Part shown: positions 4,549 through 27,562 of the stretch, piece by piece
Layout: every line of letters begins with the position of its first letter
How positions within the stretch are numbered: the stretch's first letter is position 1
Assembly (NCBI GenBank): GCA_902777855.1
Contig: CACYVN010000004.1
Coordinates: 62,001 to 126,000, forward strand
Source: an uncultured bacterium
GTDB lineage: Bacteria; Cyanobacteriota; Vampirovibrionia; Gastranaerophilales; Gastranaerophilaceae
Length of the DNA: 64,000 nt
Direction: 5' to 3'
The notes under the pieces: model-generated
The model's database searches: none
Told to the model about the DNA's origin: nothing
What the model saw: the letters and a program-made list of their open reading frames with translations, nothing else
Translations under genes and position numbers: made by a program

Positions 4549-5420
4549 TGATTACTTTAAATACCTCCATCTCAAATACAAATTACAGATATCAAAGAAA
4601 TTCTAATTCGTCATTTCAGGGTGCAATGCCGACAAAATCAGCTTTTCTTAATCCTTTTAAAAAAGGTTTTGATAAATTAACAAATACAATAGCAACTTAC
4701 TATTACGGACCACTGATGTCATCCAAAATAACAAACTGGTTATTCCACAGAAATGATATCGGAAGAATTGTTGACCACATGCAGGCAATCGGTTCTTATG
4801 TAATTTCAGGTATGTATATGCTGCAAACAATAAGAAACAAAGATATGGACGAAGACAGAAGAAGAACTCTTGCCATTAACCAAGGCTTGACTCTTGTAGC
4901 TTCGACCGCAATTGCATATTTTGTAAGTGAAAAGCTTGTAGAACCCTGGAACAAACATGTATCAATGAAATATGCCGCAAATAAAAGAGGTATAACGGTT
5001 GAACAATTAGGGAAAGAACTGGAAAAACACAGAGCAAAAATTAAGAAAATATATACAGAAAAACATCCGGAAGATGCAGAACTGAAAAAATTTAAAAAAC
5101 CAAATCTTATTCATTTTGTAGAAGAAGGATTAAAAAATGAAAATCTTGCAGGGAAACTAAAAGGTTTGGATGTATTAAAATCGTTAATTATCTTTGGCTC
5201 TGTATACAGATTCTTCGGTCCTGTCGCAGTTACCCCTGTTGCAACATGGATTGGCAACCAATTGACCGGAGCAACTAAAAAAGCACAGGAACAAAAGCAA
5301 GATACAAAATCTGAGCTTACCGTAGTTGAACAACAACCCAAAGAAGAAAAGTTTATGGCATACAATATCTTTAAACGCCCTGATATGGCAAAATTTATGG
5401 GTAGCGAAACTGATAAATAA
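4548..5420 (+). CDS. Lineage-specific membrane protein, second of a pair
   Basis: A 290-residue protein starting one base inside the stop of the upstream gene (TAATG). It carries SSFQG near residue 22, two hydrophobic segments at about 80-100 and 108-130 split by a charged loop (KDMDEDRRR), a Lys-rich soluble middle, and a C-terminal hydrophobic stretch around 218-245. This order matches the gene before it. The stop codon sits about 10 bp from the core of the repeat element at 5431. No enzymatic motif is visible and the function is unknown. Confidence 0.75.
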   Translation: MITLNTSISNTNYRYQRNSNSSFQGAMPTKSAFLNPFKKGFDKLTNTIATYYYGPLMSSKITNWLFHRNDIGRIVDHMQAIGSYVISGMYMLQTIRNKDMDEDRRRTLAINQGLTLVASTAIAYFVSEKLVEPWNKHVSMKYAANKRGITVEQLGKELEKHRAKIKKIYTEKHPEDAELKKFKKPNLIHFVEEGLKNENLAGKLKGLDVLKSLIIFGSVYRFFGPVAVTPVATWIGNQLTGATKKAQEQKQDTKSELTVVEQQPKEEKFMAYNIFKRPDMAKFMGSETDK

Positions 5421-5430
5421 TATTACCATT

Positions 5431-5781
5431 AAGAAAACTTCGCTGATTATAATACCGCCTTCGGCGGTATAAGACCGCTACGCGGTAATATGTGTTTTTG
5501 CCTTTCAGACAAAAATCTCTTAGTGCTCTTGTTCGCTCACGCTAAGGACAACGGCGCGCGCCTGAAAGATTATTATCAAAGGCGCCGTTTTTTAGGCGCC
5601 TGATTGATTTTTGTCCTGACGGACAAAAACGTATGAACGCTTTAGACGTATAATTGGCGGGCGGAGCAATGCCGTCAGGCATTGCAGTAATTCAGCGTAT
5701 TTTCTCTTTCTTGGTTCGTTCTTTCTCTTTTCATCGCAAGAAAAGAGAAAGAATGAACAAATACATATAACATATATTATG
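5431..5781 (+). repeat. Hairpin-rich dispersed element, copy A (internally deleted)
   Basis: A chain of inverted repeats with no coding sense. It contains ACCGCC/GGCGGT around 5455, GGCGCC repeated at 5581 and 5595, TTTTTGTCC/GGACAAAAA around 5608-5629, GCAATGCC/GGCATTGC at 5666-5685, and a terminal hairpin at 5714-5758 (GTTCGTTCTTTC/GAAAGAATGAAC). The same series, in reverse orientation, makes up 24186-24694. Compared with that copy, this one lacks the first terminal hairpin and roughly 90 bp in the middle (between GTTCG and the GCGCGC run). It sits between two convergent genes. Confidence 0.8.
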
Positions 5782-5802
5782 TTCAATATTTCCCAAATAT
5801 TG

Positions 5803-24179: not shown

Positions 24180-24185
24180 CTACAC

Positions 24186-24694
24186 ATAAATAATATTATG
24201 AGTAGTTCATTCTTTCTCTTTTCTTGCGATGGAAAGAGAAAGAACGAACCAAGAAAGAGAAAATACGCTGTCTCACTGCAATGCCTGACGGCATCGCTCC
24301 GCCCCCCAGATATAAGTCTATTACGTTAATACGTTTTTGTCCTAACGGACAAAAATCAATCAGGCGCCTAAAAAACGGCGCCTTTTATAATAATCTTTCA
24401 CGCGCGCGGCGTAGTTCTTAGCGTGAGTGAGCAGAGGCAGGAGCGATAGCGACAGTCGAGCAATTATGGCAGTAATGAATATTCTGCCTAATTGCGAGCG
24501 GTGCCGTTTATTGCGAACGAACAAGAGCGCTAAGAGATTTTTGCCTGAAAGGCAAAAACACATATTACCGCTTTAGCGGTCTTTTGCCGCCGTAGGCGGT
24601 ATTATAATCAGCGAAGTTTTCTTTTTGGTTCATTTCTTTTCTTTTGCCTCGCAAACAAAAGAAAAGAAATGAACTACTGATAACATATATTATG
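24186..24694 (-). repeat. Hairpin-rich dispersed element, copy B (longer, with terminal inverted repeats)
   Basis: The reverse-orientation homologue of 5431-5781, but longer. Each end is itself a hairpin: GTTCATTCTTTC...GAAAGAACGAAC at 24205-24249 and GTTCATTTCTTTTC...GAAAAGAAATGAAC at 24628-24674. These two ends match each other as inverted repeats over roughly 70 bp, including a shared loop core (TTGCGA) and outer AGTAGTTCATT. Internal hairpins include TTTTTGCCT/AGGCAAAAA, GGCGCC pairs and TTTTTGTCC/GGACAAAAA. There is no coding content. It lies between divergent rpsU and the zinc-ribbon gene. This resembles a MITE. Confidence 0.8.
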
Positions 24695-24734
24695 CAAATT
24701 TTGACTTTCTTAAAAATATTCTTATACAAAGAAT

Positions 24735-27357: not shown

Positions 27358-27370
27358 GGTAGTTGTAGGC

Positions 27371-27562
27371 GAGTGCAACGAGCCGTACAAATACCTTATC
27401 CCGAACTTGTTTCGGGATCCCTGCAAAAAACATGGTATAATCGAGTGCAACGAGCCGTACAAATACCTTATCCCGAACTTGTTTCGGGATCCCTGCAAAA
27501 AACATGGTATAATCGAGTGCAACGAGCCGTACAAATATCTTATCCCGAGCCTGTTTCGGGAT
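27371..27562 (+). repeat. 72-bp tandem repeat (2.7 units) with a -10 box per full unit
   Basis: Units start at 27371, 27443 and 27515 with exact 72-bp spacing. Units 1 and 2 are identical; the third is partial and slightly diverged. Each contains an ATCCCGAACTTGTTTCGGGAT hairpin (one base longer than its core) and the first two end with TGGTATAATC, an extended -10 promoter box (TATAAT at 27436-27441 and 27508-27513). It fills the gap between the four-Cys gene and etfB. Confidence 0.85.

Follow-up and report, generated by a model that had tools for sequence, protein, structure and literature searches.

The element described here is probably a miniature, non-coding "C-type dif module" that is flipped in place by XerC and XerD, a reading drawn from sequence comparison. 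It was identified within the window, the 64,000-nucleotide stretch of a Gastranaerophilales genome (G000) that was analysed, and its features are listed in Table 1. The family, dispersed in the chromosomes of a rumen-dwelling cyanobacterial relative, seems to be a pared-down mobile element of a type not yet described that exploits Xer recombination. No description of miniature inverted-repeat elements (MITEs) with dif-like ends was found in the literature searched.

Each end of the element is composed of ACATAA, a 6-bp centre, and TTATCGGTA. The XerD-type arm is outermost and the XerC-type arm is internal, a polarity set by likeness to E. coli dif. A first-pass annotation had placed the element at 24186-24694 and described inverted ends matching over about 70 bp. 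The element is present there, with its true boundaries as given in Table 1, and the outer 82-85 bp do match in inverted orientation at about 78% (24189-24270 against 24609-24691). The conserved terminal unit, however, is a dif-like site of 16-21 bp and not a 70-bp terminal inverted repeat. Seventeen copies were aligned with their flanks and give the terminal consensus TTTACATAA-NNNN-TATTATCGGTA. Read outward, this is TACCGATAA-TANNNN-TTATGTAAA, in which a 6-bp centre separates two arms and the core has the Xer-type form ATAA-centre-TTAT; the inner arms are degenerate. The layout in the same alignment is an outer site, optional hairpin modules, a terminal hairpin, and a string of short hairpins, and modules are freely lost or exchanged between copies.

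Table 1. Positions of the element, its second copy, and the probable dif (window coordinates unless a contig is named).
Feature	Position	Strand	Description
Whole element	24184-24695	+	512 bp, non-coding; bounded by two dif-like sites; extent from copy alignment, with ACATAA at one edge and TTATGC at the other, both included
Left dif-like site	24184-24204	+	ACATAA (XerD-type arm, 24184-24189), ATAATA (centre, 24190-24195), TTATGAGTA (XerC-type arm)
Left terminal hairpin	24205-24249		17-bp arms
Helices 1-2	24281-24294		ATGCC/GGCAT; nearly invariant, so uninformative on covariation
Helix 3	24334-24355		TTTTTGTCC/GGACAAAAA
Helix 4	24362-24383		AGGCGCC/GGCGCCT; compensatory change at 4 of 7 pairs
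Helix 5, 5' arm and loop	24402-24417		GCGCGGC/GCCGCGC; 3' arm replaced here by nested repeat
Nested repeat	24423-24526		about 104 bp; missing from most copies; also alone elsewhere in genome
Helix 6	24538-24558		TTTTTGCCT/AGGCAAAAA
Helix 7	24567-24580		ACCGC/GCGGT; ACTGC/GCAGT in other copies
Helix 8	24584-24602		GCCGCC/GGCGGT
Right terminal hairpin	24628-24674		19-bp arms, perfect
Right dif-like site, inverted	24675-24695	-	GCATAA-TATATG-TTATCAGTA
Second copy	5410-5782	-	
Eroded end of second copy	5412-5425		reduced to GATAAATAATATTA
Intact dif-like site of second copy	5767-5782		
Inverted segment	5783-24183		about 19 kb
Probable dif	G000:C3:57312-57337		within MnmD-like (methyltransferase-like) conserved coding gene, G000:C3:56788-58065 (L163:974-2254)

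The first-pass annotation had proposed a non-autonomous, non-coding, multicopy and mobile element, and this is borne out by copies in the genome and its relatives, by insertions specific to single species, and by compensatory change in the stems. The genome (1.94 Mb in 31 contigs) has 69 BLAST matches to the element and carries at least 20 non-coding, hairpin-filled copies. The terminal motif, allowing up to three mismatches, has 97 matches, against 19 for the reversed control. Matches are present in 21 of 40 relatives, mostly within the same genus; the relatives that bear a name are MAGs from rumen and gut, under the labels Gastranaerophilales, Melainabacteria or Cyanobacteria. In the G000 draft assembly, many contigs terminate within an element. 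No plausible gene or ORF is present in any element among the fetched pairs (the two longest "ORFs" belong to false pairs in coding DNA), and no gene-bearing relative was found among the fetched copies. A minimal element, about 74 bp long (L158:591-663, contig C6 of G016), consists of two inverted dif-like sites, both with the centre AACATA, and one short hairpin between them.

A single unpaired site in the genome has the same arms around the centre TATATA, TTTACATAA-TATATA-TTATCGGTATC. The terminal consensus is identical to TTTACATAA-TATATA-TTAT(C/A)GGTATC at every fixed position. The TATATA-centre site occurs exactly once in G000 and once in each of six relatives. It is probably the host dif, because its codon invariance is the highest of 192 windows and because it lies near the GC-skew maximum. 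The core of the candidate is TTTACATAATATATATTAT, and its codons, TTA CAT AAT ATA TAT TAT, are identical in 26 of 26 orthologues save for one synonymous CTA. The major-codon fraction is 0.994 at these codons, the top window, against a gene mean of 0.71 (197 conserved columns). Protein-coding constraint alone was rejected as an explanation, since codon invariance at the site is unequalled in the gene. In G000 the site is at 57.3 kb of contig C3, whose cumulative GC-skew maximum is at 55.4 kb; in G024 the site is at 82.9 kb and the maximum at 88.7 kb. The distance is thus 2-6 kb in two genomes with a noisy skew signal. The probable dif holds no inserted element, and the copies are scattered elsewhere. 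Besides a further integrase, G000 encodes two XerC/XerD-class recombinases, both of which match the XerC and XerD models with scores slightly below the equivalog cut-offs. The site is proposed for a branch of the phylum without genetics, and its location inside a coding gene is unusual. Throughout the genus it is intragenic, with the six core codons invariant in nucleotide sequence within an otherwise diverging gene. Peptides repeated in frame (TIHTNN, TIYTDN) also occur in this gene and give the impression of small palindromic elements inserted in the coding sequence, which recalls the Rickettsia palindromic elements.

The centres vary between copies and agree within them. Convergent sites were paired blind to the centre, giving 43 pairs, which include several orthologous pairs and are not fully independent. 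Both ends have identical centres in 35 of these; across 10,000 shuffles the average was 3.6 and the highest value 12. Position by position, the centres of 33 elements match at 189 of 198 positions, with 130.8 expected (z of 10.9). Coupling outside the centre is absent in the same elements, with z values of 1.2, 0.4, and 0.4 for the variable positions of the inner arm, the inner bases, and the flanks, respectively. The coupling between ends is confined to the centre. This fits the strand-exchange requirement of Xer recombination, whereas a constraint from a long hairpin or palindrome would reach inward. The eight pairs with unequal centres comprise two false pairs in coding DNA (L120 and L135), the window element (L001), L068, and four that are unexplained. 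L068 is located at a break in synteny with G012, G004, and G016; the mismatch of the window element is accounted for by an inversion described below. If the Xer reading is true, the matched centres are a natural record of compatible Xer centres.

Nine loci are occupied in two species with readable orientation. The element is inverted relative to its flanks in five comparisons (L016/L138, L004/L136, L010/L129, L022/L132, and L186/L192) and has the same orientation in four (L009/L051, L033/L239, L029/L137, and L016/L134, the last having its locus in common with the inverted pair L016/L138). In the inverted pairs, bases inward of about position 17 swap sides, with the 16-bp site and its flanks unmoved, which places the exchange within that site. 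An exchange tract of this length is too short for ordinary homologous recombination. The orientations are compared between draft MAG assemblies of different species, and misassembly is an unlikely source of the difference because the repeat of 16-20 bp is shorter than a read. Under the preferred reading, the host XerC/XerD pair would bind both ends, and identical centres would allow it to exchange strands and invert the intervening DNA. Identity of the centres would be kept by a homology requirement, or by centre-to-centre conversion during strand exchange.

The second copy in the window, reported in the first-pass annotation as lying 19 kb away in opposite orientation, is indeed there and is 87-91% identical to the window element. 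The window element has the centre ATAATA on the left and TATATG on the right, read from its own end. The intact site of the second copy has the centre TATATG, and its eroded end has ATAATA, the left centre of the window element. The two copies evidently exchanged ends by recombination, inverting the 19 kb between them. Swapped ends explain why the right-end centre of the window element is unlike the left, and they predict such an inversion. The segment is inverted relative to four related species (G002, G004, G016, and G017), in which the old order is kept and the sequence at window position 24182 adjoins that at about 5300 on the opposite strand. A chimeric join as the cause of the same configuration is unlikely given that the copies are 87-91% identical. 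Homologous recombination between copies would thus additionally reshuffle the chromosome.

It is unlikely that these are ordinary MITEs moved by a TA-targeting DDE transposase of the IS630/Tc1-mariner style, with the dif likeness and shared centres as by-products and the inverted copies as independent insertions. The elements are short, non-coding, and multicopy with inverted ends, TA is found just inside or outside most ends, and at L073 a comparison with relatives that lack the element would allow for insertion at TA. Variation in a terminal inverted repeat, however, would not be copy-specific and yet matched between ends in the centre only, nor do independent insertions fit opposite orientations that have exact flanks and centre in common. 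The ends are also identical to a dif-like genomic site at all fixed positions. A classical MITE is not supported; the ends of the element mimic the chromosome dimer resolution site and share a copy-specific centre. The TA dinucleotides that the first-pass annotation saw at the ends occur in most copies but inconsistently, and no clean TA duplication accompanies them; the outermost bases of the window element are C/ACATAA and TTATG/C. Target duplication, which the same annotation suggested checking along with empty sites, is not consistent across copies, and empty sites vary from one locus to another. A general rule of TA duplication at the target was dropped on this basis.

No match to an IS630-type (DDE_3) transposase was found in G000, G002, G004, or G016, and no autonomous IS630-type partner with the same ends was found in a search for DDE_3 in these four genomes and for genes in the fetched copies. 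Y1 transposase genes are present in three of the four carriers, whereas the element-rich G002 yielded none. A Y1 partner was rejected because its presence is not correlated with the elements. An IS200/IS605 or REP identity was also rejected, both for the missing Y1 gene in G002 and because the ends are inverted and not asymmetric hairpins of direct polarity.

Xer inversion by itself cannot yield new copies. The leading guess is that copies reach new loci when Xer recombination now and then integrates one at a weak dif-like target; a trans-acting transposase may instead be behind the spread. Occupancy is species-specific at L073, L016, L004, and L076. The empty L073 loci of four relatives contain no dif-like site. 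G016 lacks the element at L016 and retains GTAAGG, and its empty site at L006 retains TAGTTA-TTATGTA. The empty site of G002 at L004 retains arm-centre-arm CATAA-ATAACA-TTACGA, with the centre of the inverted element of G004 and G016. One locus has three centres and three interiors in three species (L029, ATAATA; L137, AAAATA; L158, AACATA, the minimal element). Arm-centre-arm excision scars or targets show little excess over the control once element ends are discounted, and no general footprint was found.

Movement in the form of a folded single strand, with the two ends paired into one complete Xer site as in CTXphi or integron attC, and with insertion or excision at chance dif-like targets, is quite unlikely. 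The attachment site of CTXphi is such a folded single strand, formed from two inverted dif-like sequences. The target's centre would end up, inverted, at both ends of the element, which would account for centres that are copy-specific yet matched. One empty site, that of G002 at L004, fits this kind of movement. Transposition of this sort, by the chromosome-dimer machinery alone, would be new. With its many loci, host species, and empty sites, the family suits study of how single dif modules move.

Both ends of the element are hairpins, as had been recognised in the first-pass annotation. Its count of at least five perfect interior hairpins is close: at least six further hairpins lie between the terminal two, one of which is broken in this copy by the nested repeat. 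Across seven hairpins in 25 copies, 99.5% of cells are paired. Changes on both sides of a pair occur in 15 of 50 pairs, compared with 4.1 in shuffles, and compensatory cells number 42, compared with 11.3; the rows are related, so the shuffle gives no strict probability, and the slid-structure controls, with just 0-2 pairs changed on both sides, concur. One pair of helix 5 is CG in 11 sequences and GC in 11. The interior stems are maintained, and the compensation that the first-pass annotation had put forward as a check is present. G-U pairs are rare in the stems, with one position excepted. This rarity and the changing orientation of the elements favour a role as DNA over one as RNA, and the hairpins may act as DNA folds.

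Compensatory change on this scale would also suit a spreading structured non-coding RNA or cis-regulatory element, with hairpins conserved as RNA. This is very unlikely, since the elements at one locus can differ in orientation, modules are freely lost or exchanged, and the scarcity of G-U pairs suits DNA folds at least as well. The Rfam search gave only chance matches, all below the gathering score. A fixed RNA with a host function, as considered in the first-pass annotation, is likewise not supported, the element having opposite orientations in different species. Palindrome correction, by template switching as inverted repeats are replicated, is an equally improbable source of the shared centres. 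Such a process may exist, given that complementarity is also kept in concert in the interior hairpins, but it would homogenise the inner arm and terminal hairpins as well as the 6-bp centre, and it leaves the inverted orientations unaccounted for.

The nested repeat is about 100 bp long with ends TTAGCG.../...CGCTAA. It inserts into the element and is also solitary in the genome and in relatives; its sites in G000 are C1:343314, C24:5467, C17:1171, C6:37357, and C9:60988.

The closest likeness is to the C-type dif/pdif modules of Acinetobacter, which also have two inversely oriented XerC/XerD sites, a 6-bp centre, and internal XerC arms. The Acinetobacter site motif is ATAA-centre-TTAT (PMC11705084). 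Inversion between inversely oriented sites of these modules requires identical or nearly identical spacers (PMC13141974), and intramolecular exchange at A. baumannii plasmid Xer sites was inefficient (PMC11705084), which weighs against the Xer reading. Inversion is tied to like centres here as well, at five loci by species comparison, with XerC/XerD as the presumed enzyme. Unlike those modules, the elements here are gene-free, 160-630 bp long, and hairpin-filled, and they are present as dozens of isolated chromosomal copies where Acinetobacter has alternating C/D arrays on plasmids. Chromosomal dif modules (PMC12907356) and an ORF-less D module (PMC13141974) are nonetheless known. Both centres of one copy match here, whereas those of A. 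baumannii pairs often diverge (PMC11705084).

Three other groups were compared. IMEX such as CTXphi integrate at the host dif; they are alike in using the host Xer machinery via dif mimics and unlike in that the copies here occupy many unrelated loci and have centres different from dif. IMEX identity was rejected because the copies are scattered and the probable dif is unoccupied. MITEs, REP/BIME, BOX, and other modular palindromic repeats are similarly short, non-coding, intergenic, modular, hairpin-rich, and multicopy, but the terminal unit here is an Xer site with a locus-specific centre, and a parent transposon was not found. Invertible segments such as those of Mycoplasma and Ureaplasma also turn over between short inverted sites, for which Xer-like tyrosine recombinases have been proposed (PMC3599477); genes or promoters are switched there, whereas a repeated non-coding element is inverted here.

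If the Xer reading is true, Xer exploitation is not confined to phages, islands, and resistance plasmids. Even a repeat that carries no genes could then live off dif recombination, maintain itself in dozens of copies on the chromosome, invert, and give rise to further inversions.

Two other repeats were identified. A high-copy short palindromic repeat around TTGCTGTACATGTCAAG is present in the flanks of L185 (G004:C4:36431-37315) and in many places in G016, and the dif-ended element of L185 sits in the loop of this repeat. A 72-bp tandem repeat (2.7 copies, 97% match) is located at window positions 27370-27562, and one of its frames encodes the repeated peptide ECNEPYKYLIPNLFRDPCKKHGII.
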